DNA of 16,874 bases from an uncultured Pseudomonadota bacterium. GTDB taxonomy: Bacteria > Pseudomonadota > Gammaproteobacteria > Burkholderiales > SG8-39. This document shows positions 374 through 14,927 of this stretch, one piece after another. Location of the stretch: positions 1 through 16,874 of the forward strand of contig CAIVVS010000122.1 of NCBI GenBank assembly GCA_903909415.1. Reading direction: 5' to 3'. How positions within the stretch are numbered: the first letter of the stretch is position 1; every line of letters starts with the position of its first letter. The position numbers and the translations under genes are program-made. Below the pieces are notes generated by a model that searched no databases, had not been told where the DNA came from, and saw nothing but the letters and a program-made list of their open reading frames with translations.

Positions 374-910
374 TCAGCCCAGCGTCTCGACCGTGATGTT
401 GGTGTTGGTGTAGATGCACAGGTCCGCGGCGATCAGCAGCGACTTCCTCACCACCTCCTCCGCGCCGAGCTGCGTGTTCTCCAGCAGGCCGCGCGCGGCG
501 GCCTGCGCATAGGCGCCGCCCGAGCCGATGGCGATCAGGCCGTGTTCGGGCTCGAGCACGTCGCCGTTGCCGGTGAGGATCAGCGAATGCTGCGCGTCGG
601 CCACCGCCAGCATCGCCTCCAGGCGGCGCAGCATGCGGTCGGTGCGCCAGTCCTTGGCCAGTTCCACCGCCGAGCGCATCAGGTTGCCCTGGTGCTTGTC
701 CAGCTTGGCCTCGAAGCGCTCGAACAGCGTGAAGGCATCGGCGGTACTGCCGGCGAAGCCCGCTAGGATGCGGTCCTGGTGCATGCGGCGCACCTTGCGC
801 GCACCCGCCTTGATGACGATGCTGCCCAGGGTCACCTGGCCGTCGCCGCCCATGGAGACCTGCGCGCCGCGCCGGGCGGACACGATGGTGGTGCCGTGAA
901 AGGATTCCAT
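374..910 (-). CDS. hslV: HslV, peptidase subunit of HslVU protease
   Basis: This is the N-terminal-threonine peptidase of the two-tier HslVU protease; 178 residues, near the family length. The TTIVSARR block contains the catalytic threonine, here Thr7 after a six-residue MESFHG leader rather than directly after Met, so processing must remove a short propeptide. [25 protein letters not shown] and GSGGAYA are family signatures. The open frame extends upstream to a Met at 940, but that codon lies at the predicted heat-shock promoter and transcription start, so the start at 910 is preferred. No strong Shine-Dalgarno is visible before it. hslU follows on the same strand. Function is established for the family; the propeptide is read directly. 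Confidence 0.97.
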
Positions 911-942
911 GGGGGAGGTGCCGCGAAGGGGAAACCCCAAGG

Positions 943-970
943 ATATGGGGTTGTCGCCCCGCGGTTCAAG
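943..970 (-). promoter_or_regulatory. Sigma-32 (RpoH) type heat-shock promoter for hslVU
   Basis: On the minus strand, CTTGAA (965-970) is followed after 14 bases by CCCCATAT (943-950). This is close to the established RpoH consensus CTTGAA-N(13-17)-CCCCATNT. It ends 32 bases before the hslV ATG at 910, leaving room for a short leader. hslVU is a classical heat-shock operon, so sequence and context agree. The transcription start is inferred to be near 936. Confidence 0.85.
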
Positions 971-1044
971 CCCGGGGCGCGCCCACCTCCGCGCCCCGGT
1001 TGCACGCCCTGATGGCGGTCAATGGCGTCCTTCCCGGACGGGGA

Positions 1045-3225
1045 TCAGAACTCGCCACGCAGGCCGGCCATGATGCCTCGGCCGGGCAGCGGAGCGATGT
1101 CCTTCAGCGACGACGCATGGTTGCGCGCTTCGCGGTTGGTCAGGTTGTCACCGCGCAGGAAGGCATCCCAGGTGGTTCCGGCGAAGGCCTTGAAGCGGTA
1201 GCTCACGCTCGCATTGAGCAGGGTGTAGGCGTCGGTCGGCAATTCGTTGGCCGTCACCCGGTTCTGGGCGCTGACCCGAACCACCTCGGCGCGGGCGCCC
1301 CAGGCATTGCGCGCGTACTCCAGCCCGGCCTTCAGCCGCGCGGGCGCGATCCTGGGCAGCGGGGCACCGGTGTCGGCGTTCTCGGCGCGCACGATGTCCA
1401 GCCCGAGCAGCAGGTGCAGCTTGGTGCCCGCGTCCATCAGCTGGAAGCGTCCCTGCGCCTCGATGCCCTTGAACACCGCCCGCACCGCGCGGAACTGGGT
1501 TTCGGGGTTGATCGGGTTGCCCGAGCCGTCGGCGTTGCCGTCACCATCGGCGTCCACCGGGTTCAGCTCGCCGTCGGAACCGCGGTTGTTGCCGGAGCGG
1601 AACAGCGCGATGTAGTTGGAGAACCGCGTGTAGTAGGCCCCCACCGATCCCGAGTGGCCGCCCGACCTCATGCGCAGGCCCAGGTCCAGCGAGCGCGATT
1701 TCTCCTTGCCGAACCCCGTGTTGCCGACTTCATATTCGCCGGTCGCCACGTGGCGGCCGTTGGCAAACAGTTCGCCCGCGCTGGGCGCGCGCTCGGTGAG
1801 CGAGTAGTTCGCAGCCAGCGCGACACCGGGCGTGAAGGCGTACAGGCCACCCAGGGTTCCGCTGCGCGGGGAGAACGACCGCGTCTGCGCCGCGCCGAAC
1901 CTTGCCGCGCCCGTGGAGGCGTCCACCGTGCCGCCTCCCACCGACTTCAGTTCATTGCGCTCGGTGCGCGCGCCGGCGCTGAGCTTCAGGGCGCCGACGG
2001 TCATTTCCTCATACAGGAACAGCGCCTTGGCATCGCTGCGCGTGGAAGGCACGAAGGCTTCCGCACCCTGCGCCTCGAACGTGCCGCCGCCGTACTGGAA
2101 GCCGAACGCACCGGTCAGCGGGCCCAGCTTGCCGTGAACCGCCTCGACCCGGCCCTCGTTGCCCTTGTTGCGGAAGGTCGTGCCGGCCACGCCGTTGTCG
2201 ATCTCGCGGTGCGCATAGTCGGTGCGCGCGTACTTGAACTTCACCGCCTCGACCAGGCTGCTGACTTCGCGGACCTCGCCGGCGAAGTCCCAGCGGCCGC
2301 TCTGCATGTCGATGGACACGCGCGGCTCCGCCACCGTCCCATAGGTGCTGTTGAAGCCGCGGTAGGACATGCCCGCATAGCCCTTGTCCCAGGTGAGCGA
2401 GGCACCGAGCGCCCCGCCGTCCGCGCTGGAGCGGCTGTTGGGCAGCCTGCCGTTGGCGGCGAGCGAATGCGCCTGCGCCGCAAAGCCCTGGCGGTTCTGC
2501 GCGATCGCCTGGCGCAGCCGGCCGGATACCGCTCCGCCGGGGATGTCGAGGTTCTCGGTCTGGCGCGAGTACACATCGGCATGGAGCGCGAACCTGCCGT
2601 TGCCTCCCTCGAGGACAACCGCATTGCTGCGCAGCCGGTCGGCGCCACCGACCCGCGGCTCGATGGAGCCGCTCACCCCGTTTCGCGCATCCTGCGGAAT
2701 CCGGTTGTCGATCACGTTCACCACGCCGCCGACTGCGTTGCCTCCGTACAGCAGCGCGGCGGCCCCCCGCACCACTTCGACGCGGTCAGCCGTCGCCGGA
2801 TCGACGGGAAGCGCATGGTCGAAACTCAGCGCCGACGCGTCCAGGGAACCCATCCCGTTGCTCATGATGCGCACGCGCTCGCCGTCCAGGCCGCGTATCA
2901 CCGGGCGGCTGGCGTTCGGCCCGAAGTAGCTGGAAGACACCCCGGGCATGTCGTTGATGGTGTCGCCGACCGTCGTGCCGCGGCGCAGGACCAGGCCGCG
3001 GCCCTGCAGGGTGGAGGCAGGCGCGATGAAATCGAACAGGCGGCTGGCGCGGATCGGGCTGCCCGTCACGATGACCGCGTCGAGTTCGGTCGTTGCTCCC
3101 GCGCTCGCGGGGGCGGATGCGGCGGACGGACCGGCGGACTGTGCGAAAGCAAACCCGGGCGCGGCAAAAGCGGCGCCAACGGCAAGGCGAAGTGCGGAAA
3201 CGCGGGAACGGCGGGGAAACGCCAT
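1045..3225 (-). CDS. znuD: TonB-dependent outer-membrane receptor, ZnuD-like (zinc uptake)
   Basis: A 726-residue outer-membrane receptor. A Sec signal peptide (residues 1-28, cut after AFA) is followed by a possible TonB box in ELDAVIVTGS. The plug carries VIRGLDGERVRIMSNG, DRVEVVRGAAALLYGGNAVGGVVNVID. The barrel ends in a terminal Phe. The plug and the stretch around NYSLTERAPSAGELFANG, RHVATGEYEVGN and FGKEKSRSLDLGL resemble Neisseria ZnuD as I remember it. The His/Asp-rich loop of neisserial ZnuD is not seen; a DADGDGNADG stretch occurs at residues 558-567. The start at 3225 has GGAGAG about seven bases upstream; an earlier Met at 3246 lacks one. It lies last in a run of small exported-protein genes, after a GC-rich 101-base leader. 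The receptor family is certain; zinc as substrate is inferred from similarity and neighbours. Confidence 0.85.
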   Translation of the reverse strand: MAFPRRSRVSALRLAVGAAFAAPGFAFAQSAGPSAASAPASAGATTELDAVIVTGSPIRASRLFDFIAPASTLQGRGLVLRRGTTVGDTINDMPGVSSSYFGPNASRPVIRGLDGERVRIMSNGMGSLDASALSFDHALPVDPATADRVEVVRGAAALLYGGNAVGGVVNVIDNRIPQDARNGVSGSIEPRVGGADRLRSNAVVLEGGNGRFALHADVYSRQTENLDIPGGAVSGRLRQAIAQNRQGFAAQAHSLAANGRLPNSRSSADGGALGASLTWDKGYAGMSYRGFNSTYGTVAEPRVSIDMQSGRWDFAGEVREVSSLVEAVKFKYARTDYAHREIDNGVAGTTFRNKGNEGRVEAVHGKLGPLTGAFGFQYGGGTFEAQGAEAFVPSTRSDAKALFLYEEMTVGALKLSAGARTERNELKSVGGGTVDASTGAARFGAAQTRSFSPRSGTLGGLYAFTPGVALAANYSLTERAPSAGELFANGRHVATGEYEVGNTGFGKEKSRSLDLGLRMRSGGHSGSVGAYYTRFSNYIALFRSGNNRGSDGELNPVDADGDGNADGSGNPINPETQFRAVRAVFKGIEAQGRFQLMDAGTKLHLLLGLDIVRAENADTGAPLPRIAPARLKAGLEYARNAWGARAEVVRVSAQNRVTANELPTDAYTLLNASVSYRFKAFAGTTWDAFLRGDNLTNREARNHASSLKDIAPLPGRGIMAGLRGEF

Positions 3226-3326
3226 GATGCTTCTCTCCAAAGGCATGTGGGGAACCCGGACCAAGGCCACGGGCTCCGGGGAGGGCTGCCGGGGCCCCGC
3301 TGGGCGGGACCGGGCGGCCGGGCCGG

Positions 3327-3644
3327 CTAGGAGAGGAGCGGAGGCGGGCCGCGCGACAGGGGCGCGGCGTGGAGGCGAAGTGCAACTGCCGGCTGCCCGG
3401 CCGAAGGCGTGGCCACCGGCAGGTCCGGCGAGGGAAGCGATGGAAGCAGGGACGGCGCCGGACTGTCCAGCGCAGCGAATGCAAGGCACTCGTCCGTGGC
3501 GTGCCCGATGGGCGGCGCCCCGTCCGGACCATGCTGCGCAACGACCAGGTCGTGCTCGGCGTGGGCAAGCGCATGCAGCTGCGCCCCCAGCTGGGCAAAG
3601 CCCAGCAGGAAGGCGAGCAGCAGCGCCAGCGGACGATGCCTCAC
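3327..3644 (-). CDS. Small exported His-containing protein, function unknown
   Basis: A 105-residue protein starting with GTG in a four-base GTGA overlap with the DUF3299 gene, so probably translationally coupled. The N-terminus RHRPLALLLAFLLGFAQLGAQ looks like a Sec signal peptide or membrane anchor. Beyond it are His24, His28, His31, His38 and His48 and one Cys (Cys53 in ATDECLAFAAL), then a Pro/Ser/Leu-rich low-complexity tail. I do not recognise a named family with confidence; short exported proteins of this style often sit beside metal-uptake genes. The spaced histidines and the position directly before a ZnuD-like receptor suggest periplasmic metal binding, which is inference. It could also be a weakly conserved envelope protein unrelated to metal. 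Confidence 0.7.
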   Translation of the reverse strand: MRHRPLALLLAFLLGFAQLGAQLHALAHAEHDLVVAQHGPDGAPPIGHATDECLAFAALDSPAPSLLPSLPSPDLPVATPSAGQPAVALRLHAAPLSRGPPPLLS

Positions 3645-4144
3645 TTTGCGACCGGCCTCGCGTCGGTGAGGCGGTAATACAGGCCTGCGGGATCGTCGCG
3701 CAGCACTTCCAGCTTCCCGGCCACCAGCACCGGCTCGAAGCTGTGCTTCACGCCCACGCGCGCCCTCACTTCAACCAGCGCCTCCGGCCCGCCGGGCATG
3801 CAGAAGCCGCAGGTCACAGGCATGGCAGACAGCAGGAAATGCTTCTGCTGGTTTCCCGTCTCGAGCGGCATCATGAAGCCGTTGATGCGCACTTCCTTGC
3901 TGGACAGCGCCGTCACCGCGTCGGAGAACTGCGGCACCACCTTGTTCTTGACCTTCACCGGCTCGACCTGGGCGAGCGTGCGCCAGGACACCACGCCGTT
4001 CATCTCGGGAAGCGGCTTGGCGGCCTGCGGCGCAATCGGCGAGGACAGGGTCATCGCCCCCGGCTCCGTGCCGCCCCACTTCTGCGCGAACGCCGGCGCC
4101 GCGAGCGCGGCAACCACGGCAATTGTCAGGACCTTGGTCATCAT
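3641..4144 (-). CDS. DUF3299 exported protein
   Basis: A 167-residue protein with a clear Sec signal peptide (residues 1-20, cut after AFA), hence periplasmic or membrane-associated. The DUF3299 core is visible: VRINGFMMPLE (about 85-95), KHFLLS (101-106) and the signature TCGFCMPGGPEALVEV (111-126), with a CxxC pair at Cys112/Cys115 and His102 as possible metal or redox ligands. The start at 4144 has GGAGAGG upstream; the second Met is equally possible. It starts 12 bases after the four-Cys gene and overlaps the next gene. DUF3299 has no established biochemical role that I know of. As I recall, members accompany ABC transporters of the Vibrio Zrg type under zinc control, which fits these neighbours. 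Confidence 0.85.
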   Translation of the reverse strand: MMTKVLTIAVVAALAAPAFAQKWGGTEPGAMTLSSPIAPQAAKPLPEMNGVVSWRTLAQVEPVKVKNKVVPQFSDAVTALSSKEVRINGFMMPLETGNQQKHFLLSAMPVTCGFCMPGGPEALVEVRARVGVKHSFEPVLVAGKLEVLRDDPAGLYYRLTDARPVAK

Positions 4145-4156
4145 CGGGCCTCTCCG

Positions 4157-4453
4157 TCAGTGCTTGTGCTTCATCCCGCACACCTTGCCTATGCCCACGC
4201 CGCGGCAATCCTTGGCGAGCTGCGCATGGCAATCCTTTTCGGGTTTGCCGGACTCCAGGCATTTCGCGGCAGCCTCGTGCGCCTGGGCCATCACCCGATG
4301 GTCAAGGATATCGTTCTTGACGCTGTGCCCGCCACGGGGCGCGGCCTTGTCGGGCGCCGCCTGCGCGAACGCGGGCGATGCGGCGAAGGCGAGCGCGCAA
4401 GCGAGTCCAACGAGGGGGCTTCGTATTAGCAACACAGTTGCACTATAGCGCAT
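4157..4453 (-). CDS. Small exported four-cysteine protein, function unknown
   Basis: A 98-residue protein. Its N-terminus ends in AFAASPAFA and looks like a signal peptide cut after residue 30. The mature part has four cysteines at 65, 75, 83 and 92 (spacing C-x9-C-x7-C-x8-C) and ends in MKHKH, with further His at 43, 52, 59 and 76. Even cysteine number and regular spacing suggest two disulfides in a helical hairpin, or a metal site. The start at 4453 has GGGAAGG a few bases upstream; an ATG at 4465 and a GTG at codon 7 are alternatives. It opens a tight gene group leading to the ZnuD-like receptor and follows the ABC permease by 45 bases. I do not recognise the family; a periplasmic metal-handling role is inferred from context only. 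Confidence 0.75.
   Translation of the reverse strand: MRYSATVLLIRSPLVGLACALAFAASPAFAQAAPDKAAPRGGHSVKNDILDHRVMAQAHEAAAKCLESGKPEKDCHAQLAKDCRGVGIGKVCGMKHKH
4429..4446 (-). promoter_or_regulatory. Candidate operator, motif shared with the zur upstream region
   Basis: On the plus strand this site reads GCAA-CAC-AGTTGCAC-T-AT and includes a perfect inverted repeat GCAAC-ACA-GTTGC (4429-4441). The same pattern GCAA-N3-AGTTGCAC-N-AT occurs before zur at 8721-8738. It overlaps the first codons of the four-Cys gene, just downstream of a candidate -10 box. A second near-palindrome, TGCACTATAGCGCA (4439-4452, 12 of 14 positions symmetric), overlaps it. Binding by the Fur-family regulator is inferred. 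Confidence 0.4.
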
Positions 4454-4472
4454 TTTCCTTCCCATTTAGGCA

Positions 4473-4478
4473 CTTATA
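4473..4478 (-). promoter_or_regulatory. Candidate -10 element for the four-Cys/DUF3299/znuD group
   Basis: TATAAG on the minus strand lies in a short AT-rich island (about 4420-4490), one of only two such islands in the window. A possible -35 (TTGCTG) sits 14 bases upstream, shorter than ideal. It falls in the 45-base gap between the permease stop and the four-Cys gene, so this group may have its own promoter besides read-through. Confidence 0.4.
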
Positions 4479-4498
4479 CGAAAATGCTAGCCCAGCAA

Positions 4499-5716
4499 TC
4501 AGCCGCGCGCAAGCGTTGCGGCGATATCCGTCCGATACGCCCGCATGGCGGGAATCAGGGCCGCAACCAGCCCGACGCCCACCGCGGCCAGGGCGATCCA
4601 GTACTCGCCGGGCAGCAGCGCCCAACCCGTGACCGCGGGTTGCTGGCGCGACGCGAGCGCGAAGCCGAGCACCTCCGTGAGCACGTGTCCCGCGACCAGC
4701 CCGATCACCGCCCCGATGGCCGCGAGCAAGGCGCCCTCGAACAGCACCAGCAGGAACAAGCGCGCCGGGCTCGCGCCGAGCATGCGCATCACCGCCAGGT
4801 CGCGGCGCCGTTCCTCCATGGCCCCGTACAGCGCGATGAACACGGACAACCCGGCCGCGAACACCAGGATCCACGCCATTCCCTGCACCGCGTCGACGCC
4901 GGCGCCCACCAGCTGGAACATGCGCGCGGTCTCGAACGCGGGGGACGCGGCCTGCAGTCCCGCCGTGGCGTTGACGAAGCGCGGCAGCATGGCCGCGGCG
5001 AGCGGCGTGGCGTACTGCACCAGGAGGGCCGTGACCTCCTTCTCCTCCTCGGCCATGTCGGCGAGCGCCTTGCGGGCCTGCGCGAGGTCGTCCAGGTGGG
5101 TATGCACCAGCCAGACCGACTCGACGCCGGTCAGCACCAGGCGGTCGACCACCGTGCCGGTGGGCGCGAGCACCCCGGTCACGGTGTACGGCGTCGCGGC
5201 GTGCGAGCTGCCGCCGCCGTCGCCGCCCAGGCCGTGCACGCCCTCGAACCGGGCCCCCGGCGCGAGCCCGAGGTCGCGCGCGGCAAGGGCGCCCGGCACC
5301 GCCTCCAGCGGGGCCTCCCACAGCCGGCCGGCGGCGAGCGCCGCGCCGAAGTGCGCCGGGTAATCGTGGCTGGTCCCCACGATCCGGAAACCCCCGACAC
5401 TGTCGCCCATCGCGATCGGGATCACCTTCTTCACCATGCGGTGCGCCTGCACGTCGCGAGCGTCCGAGAGCGCGATGTTGCCGGTCGGCACGTCCACCTG
5501 GTAGAGCGCCGACAACACCAGCTGCAGCGGACTGCCCTTGGCGCCGACCACCAGGTCGATGCCCGCCGAATCCCGCTGCATGCGCTGCTCCAGCTGGTGG
5601 CTGGCGAGCAGCAGCACGGTGATGGTGGCGATGCCCAGCGCCAGCAACAGGAGGTTCAGGGCCGTGGCGAGCGGCCGCGCGCGCAGGTAGGCGAAGCTGA
5701 TCGCAGCGGTGTTCAT
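4499..5716 (-). CDS. ABC transporter permease, MacB/FtsX type
   Basis: A 405-residue inner-membrane permease of the type-VII (MacB/LolCE/FtsX) fold: one N-terminal transmembrane helix (LATALNLLLLALGIATITVL), a periplasmic domain of about 230 residues, then three C-terminal helices (around GMAWILVFAAGLSVFIALYG, LFLLVLFEGALLAAIGAVIG and WIALAAVGVGLVAALIPAM). The FtsX-like motif MLGASPARLFLLVLFEGALL is clear. The start overlaps the ATPase stop in ATGA. Type-VII systems are known for mechanotransmission or export from the inner membrane rather than classical import. With DUF3299 and ZnuD-like neighbours, the closest analogy I recall is the zinc-regulated Zrg system of Vibrio cholerae, but substrate and direction are not evident from sequence. 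Confidence 0.88.
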   Translation of the reverse strand: MNTAAISFAYLRARPLATALNLLLLALGIATITVLLLASHQLEQRMQRDSAGIDLVVGAKGSPLQLVLSALYQVDVPTGNIALSDARDVQAHRMVKKVIPIAMGDSVGGFRIVGTSHDYPAHFGAALAAGRLWEAPLEAVPGALAARDLGLAPGARFEGVHGLGGDGGGSSHAATPYTVTGVLAPTGTVVDRLVLTGVESVWLVHTHLDDLAQARKALADMAEEEKEVTALLVQYATPLAAAMLPRFVNATAGLQAASPAFETARMFQLVGAGVDAVQGMAWILVFAAGLSVFIALYGAMEERRRDLAVMRMLGASPARLFLLVLFEGALLAAIGAVIGLVAGHVLTEVLGFALASRQQPAVTGWALLPGEYWIALAAVGVGLVAALIPAMRAYRTDIAATLARG

Positions 5717-6366
5717 GGCTTTGCCGACGCGCCGGTCCCGCCCAGCACGAGGCACCGTTCGAACGCCGGCTTGCAGCGTGAGTCGTGGGTGGCGACCACC
5801 AGGGTCGCACCGCAGGATCGCGCCTGCTCCCCGAGCAGGTCCAGTACCTGGCGCGCGCTGGCGTCGTCCAGGCTGGACGTCGGCTCGTCCGCCAGCACCA
5901 GCGCCGGCCCGTTGACCACGGCGCGCGCCACCGCCACGCGCTGCGCCTGGCCCTGCGACAGCTCGTGGGGCATGGCGCGCAAGCGCCCGCCCATGCCCAC
6001 CGCCGCGAGCACCTCGCGCACCCGACCGGGCGAGGGCGGCAGGCCGGCCAGCGAGCGCGCCAGCGTGAGGTTCTGCTCCACGCTCAGGCTGCCCACGAGG
6101 TGGAAACGCTGGGGAACGAAGCCGATGCGCGCGCCGCGGAAGCGGTCCAGTTCGCGCGGGGCAAGGCCGCCGAGGTCGCGCCCGTCCACGCTGACCTGGC
6201 CCGGCGCGGCACGCAGCAGGCCGCACAGCAGGTGCAACAGGGTGGTCTTGCCGGATCCCGAGGGGCCCATCACCAGCCAGTGCTCCCCGGCCGCCGCATC
6301 CCAGGCGTCAAGGACCAGCGCAGCCGCGCCGGCGTAGGAGTAAGCCAAGGAACGCAGCTGGATCAT
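5713..6366 (-). CDS. ABC transporter ATP-binding protein, MacB/LolD type
   Basis: A 217-residue cytoplasmic ATPase that pairs with the overlapping permease. Walker A is GPSGSGKT (34-41), the Q-loop is VPQRFHLVG (Gln86), the signature is LSQGQ (136-140), Walker B is LVLADE (156-161) and the switch His is His194 in ATHD. All catalytic elements are intact. Size and sequence fit the LolD/MacB-N subfamily that drives FtsX-type permeases. The start at 6366 lacks an obvious Shine-Dalgarno. It follows dksA by 65 bases on the same strand, so it may be read from the zur-cobW-dksA transcript or from its own promoter. The ABC assignment is certain; a role in zinc stress comes from context. Confidence 0.93.
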   Translation of the reverse strand: MIQLRSLAYSYAGAAALVLDAWDAAAGEHWLVMGPSGSGKTTLLHLLCGLLRAAPGQVSVDGRDLGGLAPRELDRFRGARIGFVPQRFHLVGSLSVEQNLTLARSLAGLPPSPGRVREVLAAVGMGGRLRAMPHELSQGQAQRVAVARAVVNGPALVLADEPTSSLDDASARQVLDLLGEQARSCGATLVVATHDSRCKPAFERCLVLGGTGASAKP

Positions 6367-6398
6367 GGCTGGACGACCCGGTTGGCCCGCATGGCGAG

Positions 6399-6412
6399 GG
6401 CGGCGCGCCGCC
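6399..6412. other. GC palindrome between dksA and the ABC ATPase gene
   Basis: GGCGGCGCGCCGCC is a perfect 14-base palindrome in the 65-base gap after the dksA stop. It could fold as part of a terminator or transcript-processing hairpin, but no T-run follows on the minus strand. In DNA this GC-rich it may also be chance. Confidence 0.25.
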
Positions 6413-6431
6413 GTCGGCCCTCAGTCGGCCT

Positions 6432-7265
6432 TCAGTCGCCGTACAGCTTCTGTTTCAGCTCGCGGCGCGACTGGGCTTCCACCGACATGGACGCGGTCGG
6501 ACGCGCGAGCAGGCGCGGCAGCCCGATCGGCTCGCCGGTCTCCTCGCAATAGCCGTAGCTGCCGTCGGCGATGCGGCCCAGCGCCTGCATGATCTTCTTG
6601 AGCAGCTTGCGCTCGCGGTCGCGCGCGCGCAGTTCGAGCGCGTACTCTTCCTCGATCGTGGCCTGGTCGGTGGGATCGGGCTCGATCTCGTGCTCGCGCA
6701 GGTGCTCGGAGGTCGCGTCGGCCTTCTCGATGATCTCGTTGCGCATCTCCTCGAGGACTTCCTTGAAGAATGCGAGCTGCGCGGCATTCATGTAGTCGCC
6801 CGCGGGCTGCTTGAGCAGCTGCGACTCGGTGATCCCGGCATAGCGCGCCTCGGGACGCGCCACCGGGTTGGACGGGCGCACGGCGGCGGCCAGCGGCGCG
6901 GCGTACACGGCGGTGTCGCCCAGGCGCTCCGATGCGCGCGGCGGGGTGAGCGCGGCCACGGCGGCCTGCGCGGCGCTGGGCGTGGAGGACACCTGCTCGG
7001 GCTCGGGGCGCGCGACCGGCTGCGACGCAGCCTTTGCGGAGGACTTGGGAGCGGGCTTGGCGGCAGGCGTCGCAGCCTTGGCCGCGGGTGACGCGGCGGG
7101 CTTCACGGCTGCGCTTACCGCCTTGCGGGCGGCAACGCTGCGCACCGCGCTGGCGGGCTTGGCCGCAGGCCTGGACGTCGCCTTGGAGGTCGCCTTGGTG
7201 GCCGGTGCGGCTTTCTTGGCTGCGGTCTTTTTCACTGTGGCCTTCACTGTGCTTGCACGAGGCAT
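6432..7265 (-). CDS. dksA: DksA family regulator, zinc-finger-deficient, with long Ala/Lys/Pro tail
   Basis: A 277-residue protein whose last ~125 residues are a DksA domain, an RNA polymerase secondary-channel regulator that works with ppGpp. The coiled-coil tip keeps the key Asp and Ala (Asp200, Ala202 in DPTDQATIEEE), and ELRARDRERKLLKKI is well conserved. The C-terminal finger reads C-x2-T-x17-S-x2-A (Cys240, Thr243, Ser261, Ala264) in place of C-x2-C-x17-C-x2-C, so a Cys4 zinc site cannot form, as in Pseudomonas DksA2. The first ~100 residues are histone-H1-like (Ala, Lys, Pro, Thr repeats), which makes it far longer than the usual ~150. Its start overlaps the cobW 3' end by 22 bases, implying coupling. 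Family is certain; zinc independence is strongly inferred from the missing cysteines. Confidence 0.93.
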   Translation of the reverse strand: MPRASTVKATVKKTAAKKAAPATKATSKATSRPAAKPASAVRSVAARKAVSAAVKPAASPAAKAATPAAKPAPKSSAKAASQPVARPEPEQVSSTPSAAQAAVAALTPPRASERLGDTAVYAAPLAAAVRPSNPVARPEARYAGITESQLLKQPAGDYMNAAQLAFFKEVLEEMRNEIIEKADATSEHLREHEIEPDPTDQATIEEEYALELRARDRERKLLKKIMQALGRIADGSYGYCEETGEPIGLPRLLARPTASMSVEAQSRRELKQKLYGD

Positions 7266-8233
7266 TGCTCGAGCCCTTTGATGAACAGGTCTTCGGGCAG
7301 GTTGCGCCCGATGAACACCATGACGCTGGAACGCTTTTCCCCCGGCCCCCAGGGCTTGCCGATGTCGCCGCCCATCAGCATGTGGACGCCCTGGAACACC
7401 ACCCTGTGGGCGTTGTCCTTCAGCGAAAGGACGCCTTTATACCGCAGCATGTCGGCCCCGTAAACCTGAATCAGGCCGGACAGGAACTCCTCCAGCTTGG
7501 CCCCGTCGAAGTGGCGCTCGGTGCGGAACACGAACGAGGACACGTGCTCGTCGTGCTCGTGCTCGGCGTCCTCCAGGAAGGTCGGGTCCAGCTCGAGGAT
7601 GGCGTTCAGGTTGAAGCCGCGGATGTCCAGGATCTCCTTGAGCGGCGTGTGCCCGAAGTTGACCTTCTTCACCGGCGCGCGCGGGTTCATGCGCGCGAGG
7701 CGCGCGCGCAGCTTCTCCACGTCCTTGTCGTCCACCAGGTCGGTCTTGGACAGCAGGATCCTGTCGGCGAAGCCCACCTGCTCCTGCGCCTCCTTGAACT
7801 CGTCCAGCGTCTGCTCGGCGTGCTTGGCGTCCACCAGCGTGATCACCGAATCCAGCAGGTAGTAGTTGCCGATGTCCTCTTCCATGAAGAAGGTCTGCGC
7901 GACCGGGCCCGGGTCGGCCATGCCGGTGGTCTCGATGATGACGCGGTCGAACTTGAGCGTGCCGCCGTCGCGCTTGTCCTTCAGCTCGCCCAGGATGCGC
8001 ACCAGGTCGCCGCGCACGGTGCAGCAGATGCAGCCGTTGTTCATCTCCACGATCTGCTCGTCCTTGTCCTGCACCAGGATCTCGTTGTCGACTCCGGCCT
8101 CGCCGAACTCGTTCTCGATCACCGCGATGCGCTGGCCGTGCTGCTCCTTGAGGATGCGGTTGAGCAGCGTGGTCTTGCCGCTGCCCAGGAATCCGGTGAG
8201 GATGGTGACGGGTACCATGTTCGAATCAGACAT
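7244..8233 (-). CDS. CobW/COG0523 family GTPase, putative zinc metallochaperone
   Basis: A 329-residue G3E-family GTPase. Walker A is GFLGSGKT (14-21), the metal-binding CxCC motif is at Cys68, Cys70 and Cys71 (NNGCICCTVRGDL), ETTGMADP (101-108) is the Walker B/G3 region and SKTD (162-165) the base-recognition motif. A HEHDEH cluster (225-230) precedes the CobW C-terminal domain. COG0523 proteins include YjiA, ZigA and ZNG1, which bind zinc and can hand it to client enzymes during limitation. The start at 8233 has a purine-rich GAGAGAAAGAG upstream; a second Met is five codons in. It lies 30 bases after zur and overlaps dksA, forming zur-cobW-dksA. A cobalamin role is less likely: no cobalamin gene is nearby. 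Confidence 0.92.
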   Translation of the reverse strand: MSDSNMVPVTILTGFLGSGKTTLLNRILKEQHGQRIAVIENEFGEAGVDNEILVQDKDEQIVEMNNGCICCTVRGDLVRILGELKDKRDGGTLKFDRVIIETTGMADPGPVAQTFFMEEDIGNYYLLDSVITLVDAKHAEQTLDEFKEAQEQVGFADRILLSKTDLVDDKDVEKLRARLARMNPRAPVKKVNFGHTPLKEILDIRGFNLNAILELDPTFLEDAEHEHDEHVSSFVFRTERHFDGAKLEEFLSGLIQVYGADMLRYKGVLSLKDNAHRVVFQGVHMLMGGDIGKPWGPGEKRSSVMVFIGRNLPEDLFIKGLEQCLVQAQ

Positions 8234-8263
8234 GCGGGCTCTTTCTCTCTTAAGCGGGGCGGG

Positions 8264-8683
8264 TCACGCGCACTGCGCGCAGACGCCCCTCACGGTTAAC
8301 TCGGTTGCGGTCAGGCCCAGCTTCCCGGCCAGTCCCAGCCCCTCGGCGCTGAGGTTTTCCAGGCAAAGCACCTTGCCGCAGCGGGAACATTCGAAGTGCG
8401 CGTGGTTCGCATGGGTTGCGTCGTTGGTGCGGAACCGCCAGACGCGGTCCTCGCCGGACACCCGGTGCGCGAGCCCCCGATCGACCAGCCATTCCAGCAC
8501 GCGGTACACCGTCACGCGGTCGATCGGCATGACCTTGGAGAGCTCGGCCTCGATCTCGTGGTGCGACAGCGCCCGCTCCGTGCGCGACAGCAGTTCCATG
8601 ACCTGCACGCGGGTGGGCGTGATGCGGCCGCCGGCGTGCCGGATCGCATCGCGGAACTGGGAAAGGTCTTTGTTCGGGGCCAT
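8264..8683 (-). CDS. zur: Fur-family regulator, probable Zur
   Basis: A 139-residue Fur-family repressor. The winged-helix part contains RITPTRVQVMELL, SHHEIEAEL and the recognition helix region DRVTVYRVLEWLVDRGL. The C-terminal part has the structural zinc cysteines Cys99/Cys102 and Cys135/Cys138, plus Cys107 and the His cluster HANHAHFEC (His91, His94, His96). The start at 8683 gives the normal family N-terminus; a longer frame to a TTG at 8728 would add 15 unrelated residues across the candidate operator. Assignment to Zur rather than Fur rests mainly on the neighbours: CobW GTPase, zinc-less DksA and ZnuD-like receptor. Autoregulation is plausible because a shared motif lies 38-55 bases upstream. 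Family is certain; metal specificity is inferred. Confidence 0.85.
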   Translation of the reverse strand: MAPNKDLSQFRDAIRHAGGRITPTRVQVMELLSRTERALSHHEIEAELSKVMPIDRVTVYRVLEWLVDRGLAHRVSGEDRVWRFRTNDATHANHAHFECSRCGKVLCLENLSAEGLGLAGKLGLTATELTVRGVCAQCA

Positions 8684-8988
8684 GGCAGGAGCGCAATGGT
8701 AGATGGGTGCGCCCCGGTGCGCAAACAAGTTGCACGATGACCGCCCCAGCCTGGCGAATGGCCGCTTCCTCCGCAGGCATAAAAGACACTAACTGGCTGT
8801 TCTTATTTACTTTTTTCGCGCCACGATCCCGGACCCAGGGTGCCTCGGCCCCCATCCCCGGCGCAAGGAAATCGGCGTTGAGGCGCCGTCCCGTAAGGAA
8901 TGTCCGCCCCTGCCGACCAAATCCGGAGCGGCAGCCGGCCCTGCACCGCCCGGACCGCAGGCCCGATTTCCCGGACAGGAGCAAACGC
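8684..8988. other. Divergent intergenic region between zur and the FecR-domain gene
   Basis: This 305-base stretch has no convincing gene. Its main signals are the shared inverted-repeat motif at 8721-8738, an AT-rich island at about 8777-8817 (TAAAAGACACTAACT then TTATTTACTTTTTT) that is the likely promoter zone for one or both flanking genes, and the AGGAG before the plus-strand ATG at 8989. I could not fit a convincing -35/-10 pair in either direction. The remainder (about 8820-8970) is GC-rich and shows nothing clear. Confidence 0.6.
8721..8738 (-). promoter_or_regulatory. Candidate operator upstream of zur
   Basis: The plus strand reads GCAA-ACA-AGTTGCAC-G-AT, 14 of 18 positions identical to the site at 4429-4446 and in the same orientation relative to its downstream minus-strand genes. 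GCAA...TTGC forms the inverted repeat. It lies 38-55 bases upstream of the zur start, a usual place for autoregulation. It does not match the TGTTATA-type Zur box I know from gammaproteobacteria and Neisseria, so assignment to Zur is tentative. Confidence 0.4.
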
Positions 8989-9678
8989 ATGACCCCAGAA
9001 CGCCCGCAGCCGGCGTCGCCGCAGAGGCGCGCCTTCCTCCAACGGGCGGAACTCGCTTGCGGCGCATGCCTGTGCCTCGCCCTGCTTCCGTCGGCCGCGA
9101 TGGCGCAACCCGCGCCGGCTACGCGGCGCAACGCCATCCACCGCCTGTCAGGCGAAGTACGGGTCAATGAACGGCTCGCGTCCATCGCCTCGGAGATCCG
9201 GCCCGGCGACAGGGTGCGCACCGGACCGGACGGCGAGATCGCGTTTTCCATCGGCGCCGACGCCTTCCAGCTGCGCAGCCGCAGCGAGCTCGCGGTGGAC
9301 GGATCCGCGGCGGCGAACATCGTGGCCGCGCTGAGGCTGACCACCGGCGCGCTGGCGGCGGTCTTCGGCCGCGGCGCGCCCCGCAGCGTCGTCGGCCCCA
9401 CGGTGACGGCCGGCATACGCGGCACCGGCGTGTACATGCAAACCGGCGCGCGCGGCACCTACGTCTGCGCCTGCTTCGGCACCGTGGACCTCGCCGCCAC
9501 CCGGGGCTCGCGCGACCGGCTCAGCGTGCAGTCCACCCACCACCATGCGCATTGGGCGCTGGGGGAGGCCACGCCCGCCGGCTCGCTGGAGGCCGCGCCG
9601 ATGATGTTCCACACCGACGAGGAGATGGACGGACTCGAACAGCTGGTCGGGCGGCGCGCGCCCTGGGTACCGCGCTGA
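8989..9678 (+). CDS. Secreted FecR-domain protein with CxC and HHHxH motifs
   Basis: A 229-residue protein and the only plus-strand gene. The N-terminus has twin arginines (Arg13-Arg14 in QRRAFLQ), then a hydrophobic stretch ending AMA (residue 39), compatible with a Tat or Sec signal peptide. Residues from about 48 match the FecR domain: SGEVRVNERLASIASEI, GDRVRTGPDGEIAFSIG, TVTAGIRGTGVYM. The end of the domain has YVCACFGTVDL (Cys160, Cys162) and then HHHAH (His184-186, His188), possible metal ligands. There is no transmembrane anti-sigma arrangement and no sigma-factor or FecA gene alongside, so it is unlikely to be a classical FecR. The start at 8989 has AGGAG at ideal spacing, rejecting the longer frame. 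Its job is unknown; divergence from zur is suggestive only. Confidence 0.87.
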   Translation: MTPERPQPASPQRRAFLQRAELACGACLCLALLPSAAMAQPAPATRRNAIHRLSGEVRVNERLASIASEIRPGDRVRTGPDGEIAFSIGADAFQLRSRSELAVDGSAAANIVAALRLTTGALAAVFGRGAPRSVVGPTVTAGIRGTGVYMQTGARGTYVCACFGTVDLAATRGSRDRLSVQSTHHHAHWALGEATPAGSLEAAPMMFHTDEEMDGLEQLVGRRAPWVPR

Positions 9679-11126: not shown

Positions 11127-11660
11127 TCATAACCAGCCGGCCAGGCCCATGCCTGCGCCGGCGATGATCAGCCAGATCGGGTTGATGCGCGAAGCCAGCA
11201 GCAATACGCCCGCCGCGACTGCGGTGAGCGTGTAATCCTTGATCGTGTGGTCGGCGGCCTGGGTCAGCAGCCAGGCCGCCGAGAGCATCAGCCCGACGGT
11301 GATGGGCGCGAGCGCCGACTGCACCACGCGCCGCCAGCGCGCCTCGCGGAAGCGCTCCCAGACCTGCGCGCCGAAATGCGCGACCGTGCAGGTGGGAATG
11401 GTCATCGCCGCGGTGAGGATCACCGCCCCGGCCAGCCCGCCCATGTGGAAGCCGATCAGGGTCATCACCAGCACGTTCGGGCCGGGCGCGGCCGTGCCCA
11501 TGGCGTACAGGTCGGCGAAGGTCGGCTCGGTCATCCAGCCGTTGATGTCCACGACCTTGCGCTGTATCTCGGGGAGGATGGACTGCACCCCGCCGATGGA
11601 CAGCAGCGATATCGCCGCCAGCTCCAGCGCGAAGCCCCAGATGGTGTCCAGGCCCTGCAT
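11127..11660 (-). CDS. Chromate transporter (CHR) half protein, C-terminal type
   Basis: A 177-residue membrane protein with hydrophobic segments at FALELAAISLLSIGGVQSIL, NVLVMTLIGFHMGGLAGAVIL, SALAPITVGLMLSAAWLL and the C-terminus. It carries the CHR pattern in GGVQSILPEIQR, followed by DLYAMGTAAPGPN. With the gene just upstream it forms a short-chain CHR pair whose two products together correspond to full-length ChrA. It begins three bases after its partner's stop, so the two are surely coexpressed. CHR proteins are known as chromate efflux carriers, but many short-chain pairs have untested substrates. Nothing else in the window suggests chromate stress. Confidence 0.87.
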   Translation of the reverse strand: MQGLDTIWGFALELAAISLLSIGGVQSILPEIQRKVVDINGWMTEPTFADLYAMGTAAPGPNVLVMTLIGFHMGGLAGAVILTAAMTIPTCTVAHFGAQVWERFREARWRRVVQSALAPITVGLMLSAAWLLTQAADHTIKDYTLTAVAAGVLLLASRINPIWLIIAGAGMGLAGWL

Positions 11661-11663
11661 GCG

Positions 11664-12230
11664 CTACTTCACCCGCCGCCAGGCGATCAGCAGCGCGAGC
11701 GGCACCAGCACCGCCAGCATCGCCGGCAGGCTGACGCGCAGCAGGGCGATCGCGACGAACGCCAGGACCGCGAAGATGCCCATCGGGTTGCGCCAGTCGT
11801 AGGCCCCGGCCACCTTGAGCGCGGTGGCCACCATCAGGCCGGCGGCCACCGGCGCCACGCCGCGCATCACGCCATCGACGATGGGCGAGTGGCCGTAGCC
11901 CACGTAGATGGCGCCCAGGCAGCACGCGATCGCGAACGGCGCGCCCATCAATGCGAGCAGGCCCACGACCGCGCCCGGCAGGCCGTGCAGGCGCCCACCC
12001 ATCACCACCGCCATGTTGATGATGTTCGGCCCCGGCATGAACTGGCTGAGCGCGAGCAGGTCGTTGAACTCGGCCGCGGTCAGCCACTTGCGTCGCTCGA
12101 CCATCACCAGCCGCGCCCAGGGCAGCACGCCGCCGAAGCCGGACACGCCGATGACGAACAGTCCCCAGGTGAATTCACCGAAAGAAGGTTTGCGGCCGGT
12201 CGCGGCCGCGGGTGGCGTGGACCCGCTCAC
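11664..12230 (-). CDS. Chromate transporter (CHR) half protein, N-terminal type
   Basis: A 188-residue membrane protein with the N-terminal CHR signature: FGEFTWGLFVIGVSGFGG, ARLVMVERRKWLTAAEFNDL, LSQFMPGPNIINMAVVMG. Several hydrophobic helices follow (LLALMGAPFAIACCLGAIYV, AGLMVATALKVAGA, IFAVLAFVAIALL, LPAMLAVLVPLALLIAW). The start is a GTG at 12230 in a four-base GTGA overlap with the xerC stop, indicating translational coupling. It pairs with the next gene as a two-gene CHR carrier. Chromate is the established family substrate; here it is unproven. Confidence 0.87.
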   Translation of the reverse strand: MSGSTPPAAATGRKPSFGEFTWGLFVIGVSGFGGVLPWARLVMVERRKWLTAAEFNDLLALSQFMPGPNIINMAVVMGGRLHGLPGAVVGLLALMGAPFAIACCLGAIYVGYGHSPIVDGVMRGVAPVAAGLMVATALKVAGAYDWRNPMGIFAVLAFVAIALLRVSLPAMLAVLVPLALLIAWRRVK

Positions 12231-13318: not shown

Positions 13319-14046
13319 GGCGCGATCCGGACCAGCGAGGCGCTGACCAGTTCGCCGATGCGCTCGAGGAACAGCGTGCCCATGTCCGGATAGAACCGCA
13401 GCACGTCCTCGCTGCCCAGCGCCAGCATGCCGGCGCAGGGCGCGGCGGGATCGGGGGCGCTGCCGGGATCGGAGCCGCGCAGGTCGCGCAGCGCCATGAA
13501 AGCCACCGAGCGCACGTGCGATGCCGCCGGGCCGAACCAGGACGCGACCTCCGGCTGGCCGCTGGGGCCGCAGAACGGCTGCGCCAGTGCGGCCGCGTAC
13601 TCGCGCACCGCATCGCCCACCGGGCGCAGGCACTCGACCACCGCGCCCCCGGCCTCGCCCGCCGCGCCACCCAAGGCGTCCCCGCCGCGCTGGCTGAACC
13701 CGCCCCAGAGGCGCAACGCCACGTGCGGCACGGCGAAGTCCTGCTGCAGGTGGTTGTGCAGGGCCGCGTCCAGCGTGGCCAGGTCGCGCGCCGACGTCAG
13801 CCCGAGCGACAGCCGGTGCATGCGCGCGCCGATGGCATCGTTTTCCTCGCCGATCTGGATCAGTTCGCCCAGGCGCGATTCCAGCACCTTGTTGCGCTCG
13901 CGCAGCTGGAGCATCTGCCGGTCCGACAGCGAAATGGCGCGGCCATCGTGGGGATGCGGCACCGTGATGTCGGCCAGCAGTTGCGTGTGCTGCTCGAAGA
14001 ATCCCGGGTTGCCCCGGAGGTAGGTTGCGACGTCGTCGGCGTCCAT
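13315..14046 (-). CDS. DUF484 family (GAF-like) protein
   Basis: A 243-residue cytoplasmic protein of the DUF484 family. It opens with the family N-terminus DDVATYLRGNPGFFEQHTQLL, then a coiled-coil-like stretch (LSDRQMLQLRERNKVLESRLGELI), then a GAF-like domain containing VPHVALRLWG, VRSVAFMALRD and AGMLALGSEDVLRFYPDMGTLFLERIGELV. The start at 14046 overlaps the dapF stop by one base (TGATG) and its own stop overlaps xerC, giving dapF-DUF484-xerC, an order shared with gammaproteobacteria such as E. coli (yigA). A longer frame to 14250 lies inside dapF and is not used. The family has no firm biochemical function; a link to XerC is known only from gene order. Confidence 0.9.
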   Translation of the reverse strand: MDADDVATYLRGNPGFFEQHTQLLADITVPHPHDGRAISLSDRQMLQLRERNKVLESRLGELIQIGEENDAIGARMHRLSLGLTSARDLATLDAALHNHLQQDFAVPHVALRLWGGFSQRGGDALGGAAGEAGGAVVECLRPVGDAVREYAAALAQPFCGPSGQPEVASWFGPAASHVRSVAFMALRDLRGSDPGSAPDPAAPCAGMLALGSEDVLRFYPDMGTLFLERIGELVSASLVRIAP

Positions 14047-14927
14047 CAGATTTCCAGCTCTCCCTCGAAGACCGTCACTGCCGGCCCGGTCATGAACACC
14101 GCCTGTCCCAGCTTCGGCCCCAGCTTCGCATTGTCGTTGCCGGGCCAGCGTATCGTCAATTCGCCGCCGCGCGTCTGCACCCGCACCGTGTCGTCCAGCA
14201 GGCCGCGGCGTATGCCGGCGACCACCGCGGCGCAGGCGCCGGTGCCGCACGCGAGCGTCTCGCCCGCGCCGCGTTCATGGACGCGCAGCCGGATGCGGCC
14301 GCGGTCCAGCACCTGCATGAAGCCGGCGTTCACCCTGTTCGGGAAGCGGACATGGGATTCGATCAACGGGCCCTGCCCGGCCACCGGCGCGGTGTCCACG
14401 TCCTCCACCACCTGAACCGCGTGCGGGTTGCCCATGGACAGCGCGGTGACCTGGACCGTCAGCCGCGCGTTGCCCATGGCCAGCTCCAGCGGCTGCACCA
14501 GCGCGTCGCTGTCGGTGATGAAGGGGATGCGCGCGGCCTCGAACACCGGCGCGCCCATGTCCACCGTCACCTCGCCGTCGTCCTCCAGCCGCGGCGCGAT
14601 CACGCCCGAGGCGGTGAGCACGCGGATCTCGCGCGCGGTCGACAGGCCCTTGTCGTTGACGAAGCGCGCGAAGCAGCGCGCGCCGTTGCCGCACTGCTCG
14701 ACCTCGCCGCCATCCGAGTTCCAGATGCGGTAGCGGAAGTCGGCCTGGCCCGCGAGCCCACCCGCGAGCGGTTCGACCAGCAGGATCTGGTCGCAGCCGA
14801 CGCCGAAGTGCCGGTCGGCGATGCGGCGCGCGCGCTCCGGGGTCATGTCCACCGACTGGCGCACGCCGTCCAGCACGACGAAGTCGTTGCCCAGTCCCTG
14901 CATCTTGGAAAACCGCAGCTTGCCCAT
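14046..14927 (-). CDS. dapF: Diaminopimelate epimerase
   Basis: A 293-residue cofactor-independent epimerase converting LL- to meso-diaminopimelate for lysine and peptidoglycan synthesis in the cytoplasm. The N-terminus [18 protein letters not shown] is diagnostic. The two catalytic cysteines are Cys79 in [13 protein letters not shown] and Cys227 in [16 protein letters not shown] is also present. The start at 14927 gives the usual N-terminus and has GGAGA five bases upstream; a longer frame to 14966 would overlap the upstream gene. It lies 20 bases after the CoA-binding gene and overlaps DUF484 by one base, so it is part of the packed operon. Confidence 0.97.

Follow-up and report, generated by a model that had tools for sequence, protein, structure and literature searches.

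A predicted Zur-controlled zinc-scarcity locus in an uncultured Burkholderiales bacterium joining zur-cobW-dksA to a MacB-type ABC pair and a four-cysteine protein

The present study analyzes a block of nine genes on contig CAIVVS010000122.1 (assembly GCA_903909415.1), from an uncultured Pseudomonadota bacterium placed in Burkholderiales, SG8-39; the whole stretch that was analyzed, 16,874 nucleotides, is referred to as the window. A sequence-only reading of this DNA had proposed nine consecutive minus-strand genes, from a Zur-type regulator to a ZnuD-like receptor, as a zinc-limitation island, and all nine open reading frames (ORFs) were found in that order and at the coordinates it gave. Together with the gene bounding the block and two palindromes discussed below, they are as follows, ABC standing for ATP-binding cassette.

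8719-8735, no strand assigned: Zur-box-like palindrome upstream of zur, GTGCAACTTGTTTGCGC on the minus strand, 15.0 bits
8264-8683, minus: Fur-family regulator of Zur type with two CxxC motifs (PF01475; structure match; alignment with relatives)
7244-8233, minus: COG0523 GTPase with a CICC motif (PF02492 and PF07683)
6432-7265, minus: DksA with one of four finger cysteines and a long Ala/Lys-rich N-terminus (DksA_N and zf-dskA_traR; TIGR02420)
5713-6366, minus: ABC ATPase of MacB/LolD/FtsE type (PF00005, ABC_tran)
4499-5716, minus: ABC permease with FtsX and MacB periplasmic core (PF02687; PF12704, MacB_PCD)
4427-4443, no strand assigned: Zur-box-like palindrome at the start of the Cys98 gene, GTGCAACTGTGTTGCTA on the minus strand, 17.65 bits
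4157-4453, minus: Cys98, a secreted-looking four-cysteine protein with a C-terminal GMKHxH-type tail (relatives; co-occurrence)
3641-4144, minus: DUF3299 protein with CxxC, a homologue of PA4066 (PF11736)
3327-3644, minus: His105, a short histidine-containing protein ending RGPPPLLS, perhaps DUF2946-like (slot counterparts)
1045-3225, minus: TonB-dependent receptor, ZnuD-like, with Plug and TonB barrel (nearest structure ZnuD)
374-910, minus: hslV, a housekeeping gene at the block boundary (ORF list; gene order)

Pfam families were assigned to seven of the nine proteins, with none above cut-off for Cys98 or His105. Overlaps join cobW to dksA (22 nt), the ATPase gene to the permease gene (4 nt) and the DUF3299 gene to that of His105 (4 nt), and the largest intergenic gap within the block, between His105 and the TonB receptor, is 101 nt if the receptor starts at 3225. 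Beyond hslV lies hslU, cut by the window end.

Relatives of the block were collected from a sample of 300 genomes of one order, 45 of which had a match to the permease at E≤1e-45; these provide the module loci L133-L177, and whatever has no such match is called module-free. Contig ends shorten five loci (L134, L136, L162, L166 and L175) to less than 14 kb and others are cut at one end, and as all were counted the absences there are lower bounds. Near the permease there was a DUF3299 gene at 39 of the 45 loci, hslV at 24, a COG0523 gene at 21 and Zur at 19, with a window-like receptor (15), Cys98 (13), DksA (8), a ZnuA-like gene (8) and a ZIP gene (4) among the further neighbors. At least one of Zur, COG0523 (CobW), ZIP, ZnuA and ZnuB, at E≤1e-8, was found at 29/45 module loci versus 0/20 control regions of 20 kb, chosen at round coordinates in 19 genomes of the same sample, from which we take the company of zinc genes to be real. 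The eight relatives in which a ZnuA-like gene accompanies the module undercut the suggestion that absence of a ZnuABC importer makes the ABC system the distinctive part. COG0523 was also tried as a probe of kinship but led to another group, read as methanotrophs from gene content, and was dropped; a contig scan of named genomes yielded a single distant locus, L001 (Psychrosphaera).

The idea that the block interrupts an hslUV/dksA/cobW neighborhood was borne out. Module-free locus L092, from the single genome (G934) matched by an HslV probe at E≤1e-86 among 259 genomes, has cobW, dksA, one further gene, hslV and hslU in that order, and the module sits between dksA and hslV at 6/45 loci (L149, L158, L165, L169, L173 and L177). 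That the module travels in one piece holds only in part, since in genome G1143 rlmI-zur-cobW-dksA (L213) and the ABC module with Cys98 (L171) are on different contigs. The block is thus made of two separable halves, zur-cobW-dksA and ABC-Cys98-DUF3299-His105-receptor, and the window joins both.

When 397 upstream stretches of the relatives were searched for exact gapped palindromes, TGCAAC-N3-GTTGCA ranked top, at five loci with the window not among them; in a control based on a single shuffle any palindrome occurred in at most two loci. A matrix was made from sites with no more than two mismatches (18 sites at 12 loci, window excluded) and kept fixed, as re-training it in rounds led to drift toward AT-rich sites. 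Over the window's full length of 16,874 bases its two best positions were 4427-4443 and 8719-8735, with the scores listed above, and the third scored 8.0 bits. Among 500 Markov-simulated windows, 7 had one site of at least 17.65 bits and 26 had one of at least 15.0 bits, with two sites of at least 15.0 bits in none. With leave-one-out scoring and a threshold of 13 bits, sites were detected in the relatives ahead of zur at 14 of the 19 loci with a Zur gene, ahead of the TonB receptor gene at 6 of 15 (L139, L152, L153, L159, L167 and L175) and ahead of the ZIP gene at two of four, counts that near-identical loci inflate (as near-copies, L152, L153, L159 and L175 are not independent). Because the receptor sites fall inside the block, a second, internal site recurs in several relatives. 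L166 begins inside the permease, so that an upstream site there cannot be judged, and a search for other shared palindromes upstream of Zur-less modules revealed nothing convincing. The palindrome is not claimed as new, since RegPrecise includes a Zur motif for Burkholderia (PMC10563805); the sequence found here appears unlike the Zur site of the Vibrio zrg operon (PMC9817125).

The proteins of the zur-cobW-dksA half can be identified with differing precision. Among solved structures the regulator was nearest to E. coli Zur (4mtd, 47.5 bits), followed by Fur (32.8 bits), with both CxxC motifs aligned. At L148, L160 and L163 we noted a second Fur/Zur type, unlike the zur-cobW type in sequence, beside znu-like genes. 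For the COG0523 GTPase the best NCBIfam model was PRK11537, at 336 bits below its cut-off of 361. DksA reaches its NCBIfam cut-off (TIGR02420, 136.0 versus 115.5 bits) with the C4 finger lost and one cysteine left. This cysteine-poor form had been counted as a component of the zinc-limitation response, a role that could not be upheld: the finger has one cysteine in all 8 of the DksA copies near the module among relatives, the one-cysteine protein is the sole finger-family match in 3/20 genomes, and in C. metallidurans dksA was unregulated where Zur targets responded (PMC13192273). On these three grounds the cysteine-poor DksA is the ordinary form, part of an ordinary zur-cobW-dksA half, and probably a housekeeping passenger in the block. 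Zur-linked cysteine-poor DksA paralogues, described in 2009 (PMC2770081), likewise lack the C4 finger motif but are Zur-regulated, whereas the window dksA occupies the ordinary dksA place of its relatives and its C. metallidurans counterpart is unregulated. The DksA survey covered 30 loci, with L242 and L243 unread, L218 giving no output, L216 and L241 judged by eye, and two further matches having no locus. The first 150 codons of the window dksA form a long Ala/Lys/Pro-rich extension, and the DksA of module-free G934 (L092) has an extension too.

For the ABC ATPase the NCBIfam DevA, FtsE and LolD models matched, all below cut-off, and no MacA adaptor was detected beside the MacB-type pair among the ten proteins scanned. 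A tree of 47 permeases, leaving out L162 and L166 (no full permease), PA4065 and the Vibrio permeases, split five rows from 42 including the window with support of 100/100; measured from the midpoint root, the side with the five rows has a length of 1.81. All three permeases found beside a relative of ZrgA (DUF2796-like) fall among the five rows. Blastp with one sequence, the ZrgA-like protein of L041, found ORFs in 2/45 loci (L155 and L174, which belong to the five rows) but nothing in the window, and it is insensitive to diverged forms, as L156 and L176, also among the five, were missed; Pfam gave no DUF2796 among the scanned proteins of the block. The DUF3299 protein was recognized by PF11736 (31.5 bits, cut-off 22). 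Its window sequence alone found nothing at E≤1 among solved structures; a profile from an alignment of 22 of the 39 DUF3299 relatives, L030 and the window reached the PA4066 structure 4hsp (E 6.9e-6). CxxC is present in 24/24 aligned rows, whereas 4hsp has only the first cysteine of the pair.

The four-cysteine protein Cys98 is tied to this branch. A profile search of all 45 module genomes and 80 of the 255 other genomes in the sample found it in 13/45 and 0/80, respectively, lying directly after the permease in 12 of the 13 and about 3.4 kb downstream, as two matches, in the remaining one. There (L141, genome G1031, 13976-14410 in permease orientation) the two adjoining matches share one open frame. 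The protein has a signal-like N-terminus, an H-x-H-like tail, and C65, C75, C83, C92, H52, H59 and H96 invariant in 21 aligned rows; of its 103 relatives at E≤0.001, one (P0061) carries the database label Burkholderiales. In the predicted structure helices 45-67 and 72-82 are well predicted, but the mean predicted local distance difference test score (pLDDT) of the whole model was 69.4 and no PDB entry matched at E≤0.001, so that no fold can be named. A literature search found no account of Cys98 and none of the ZrgA-less branch, although Cys98 has no searchable name and the C. metallidurans Zur-regulon papers of 2014, 2017 (J. Bacteriol.) and 2019 fell outside that search.

His105 is a fast-changing protein. 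Its homologues amount to one, near-identical, and at L133, L135, L140 and L144 the same slot holds a short histidine-bearing protein with a related ending. DUF2946 was the nearest family for 4/5 scanned proteins of this slot, always below cut-off (9.4 bits for His105, cut-off 23.7). L133 has, besides the copy before the receptor, a second His105-like gene at 8275-8634, directly upstream of the ATPase gene. The receptor itself had ZnuD (4rdr, 185.1 bits) as its nearest solved structure, the next scoring 45.7 bits, and Neisseria ZnuD aligned over most of its length, including the DHA...VD stretch of the plug.

Comparison with known systems shows that the locus as such has precedents: one part corresponds to a C. 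metallidurans operon, and the other belongs, as a distant branch, to the Zur-regulated Zrg/PA4063-66 systems. In C. metallidurans the TonB receptor gene Rmet_0123 lies downstream of zur-cobW2-cobW3 in one operon, Op0032r (PMC11647595), and heads the list of genes raised by EDTA, at 10.7-fold (PMC11647585); zur is autogenously controlled and dksA is positioned between cobW2 and cobW3 (PMC13192273). The window shares zur, a COG0523 gene and dksA in that order with the receptor downstream, but has one COG0523 gene where Op0032r has two cobW genes; the interval from cobW3 to Rmet_0123 lies outside this comparison. The Vibrio zrg operon is Zur-repressed and argued to acquire zinc (PMC9817125), and PA4063-66 of P. 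aeruginosa is a Zur-controlled operon with a MacB-type pair and a DUF3299 protein (PMC11481552, PMC8561739). Vibrio ZrgABCDE (VP_RS01475-01455), PA4063-PA4066 and the window have in common separate neighboring genes for a MacB-type ATPase and permease, DUF3299, and a link to Zur that for the window is predicted from its two box-like sites. The window differs in having no detected DUF2796/ZrgA, in adding Cys98 and a ZnuD-like receptor, in the second DUF3299 cysteine (CxxC), which is not in 4hsp, and in a permease that our tree places apart from the clade with the three ZrgA-linked ones. What is distinctive is that ZrgA was not found on this branch and that a four-cysteine protein is tied to it.

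Taken with the neighboring genes, the palindromes, the C. metallidurans operon and the nearness of the receptor to ZnuD, these patterns suggest that the block is likely a zinc-scarcity locus under predicted Zur control, which retains the shared zinc role of the sequence-only reading for the block without DksA and in the face of the zinc-free relatives considered below. We infer the regulation, the metal, the direction of transport and the carrier roles, and an account might run as follows. With zinc plentiful, zinc-bound Zur would occupy both sites, the one preceding zur and the one at the Cys98 start, and so repress the two halves. When zinc is low, the ZnuD-like receptor would admit zinc, or a chelate of it, to the periplasm, where Cys98, the CxxC DUF3299 protein and the histidine protein may hold and relay the metal. 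The MacB-type pair, rather than being a zinc channel, would convert ATP use in the cytoplasm into a periplasmic conformational change by which these carriers are loaded or stripped; zinc would then enter through an importer of ZIP or Znu type whose genes lie elsewhere, the COG0523 GTPase would allocate zinc inside the cell, and DksA would be a passenger. Loading or stripping of carriers, which we derive from the MacB architecture, for which mechanotransmission has been described (PMC11481552), and from the company of three secreted-looking proteins, is in itself somewhat doubtful. The zinc-scarcity account of the locus with this carrier mechanism as its leading form we regard as evenly balanced between right and wrong. 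A more specific proposal is possible, with the balance tilted against it: that the Burkholderiales branch linked to hslV is a counterpart of Zrg without ZrgA, in which cysteine chemistry replaces histidine chemistry, and in which Cys98, as an undescribed periplasmic carrier family with its own Zur box in the window, and the CxxC DUF3299 protein would pass on zinc from the ZnuD-like receptor, delivering it to, or receiving it from, a mechanical ABC pump of MacB type.

A number of results weigh against a zinc role and Zur control. No zinc gene was found at 16/45 module loci, and at these 16, L166 aside, no site of at least 13 bits lies within 1.5 kb upstream of the ABC genes. A Zur match at E≤1e-12 was missing in 12 of 14 module genomes tested, 13 of which had been selected since the locus showed no Zur, and a diverged Zur would escape such a search. 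Six of the 13 Cys98 loci (L133, L134, L137, L144, L166 and L171) are without a zinc gene, and five of those six genomes are without a close Zur. The better site in the window falls within the Cys98 ORF, by 10 nt, if translation starts at ATG 4453, and no sigma-70-like promoter was detected in 900-9100. Scores against curated models fell below cut-off for the regulator (Zur NF008646, 48.4 bits, cut-off 167), the GTPase (ZigA, 193.5 bits, cut-off 600) and the receptor (ZnuD, 287.7 bits, cut-off 950). The zinc-free loci and the genomes without a close Zur would be expected if two unrelated blocks stood side by side, zur-cobW-dksA serving zinc and the ABC/Cys98/DUF3299/receptor genes another metal or an envelope task, as would the separate halves of G1143, and the Cys98 residues could bind copper too. 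Such an arrangement would not account for the 29/45 versus 0/20 company of zinc genes, the nearness of the receptor to ZnuD or the second Zur-box-like site within the ABC half, and the MacB-type/DUF3299 operons of Vibrio and Pseudomonas are reported to be Zur-controlled; we consider it quite improbable.

An additional difficulty comes from P. aeruginosa, where experiments have been used to argue that the PA4064-65 pair serves pyochelin/cobalt export and not zinc handling (PMC11481552). By analogy, the ABC pair of the window could export a metal chelate or metallophore, guarding against wrong metals in zinc scarcity, with the TonB receptor as import partner. The FtsX/MacB architecture is consistent with this, and the pyochelin-cobalt proposal draws on PA4065 deletion, feeding and metal-content data, but the same paper also reports pyochelin export without need of the PA4065 transporter. 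Moreover, no MacA-like, TolC-like or metallophore synthesis gene was recognized by eye among the window ORFs, ten of whose proteins were family-scanned, and the permease branch is far from the ZrgA-type clade, with PA4065 not in the tree; we consider chelate export unlikely here. A LolCDE-like transporter for lipoproteins or envelope maintenance, with no metal link, could explain why the permease matched 5xu1 (an ABC transporter permease), LolF, YtrF, LolC and LolE among solved structures; however, these matches were weak (35.6 bits at best), the LolCE model gave 30.4 bits against a cut-off of 362, and a DUF3299 gene is nearby at 39/45 loci, making this the least credible alternative and a very improbable one.

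The block is of interest because the job of MacB-type/DUF3299 systems is disputed among import aid, chelate export and carrier stripping. Zur control of such systems, reported in Vibrio and Pseudomonas, would by the sites found probably extend to a third lineage. A branch seemingly without ZrgA that keeps the pump and the DUF3299 protein reduces the core of the system to three proteins. In Cys98, through its link to module genomes, there is a small protein for asking which metal is handled.

Outside the block, the gene at 8989-9678 on the plus strand, divergent from zur, is one we take to be FecR-like, with no match in Pfam or NCBIfam. Two consecutive half-size genes at 11127-12230 on the minus strand are presumably a split chromate-transporter pair.

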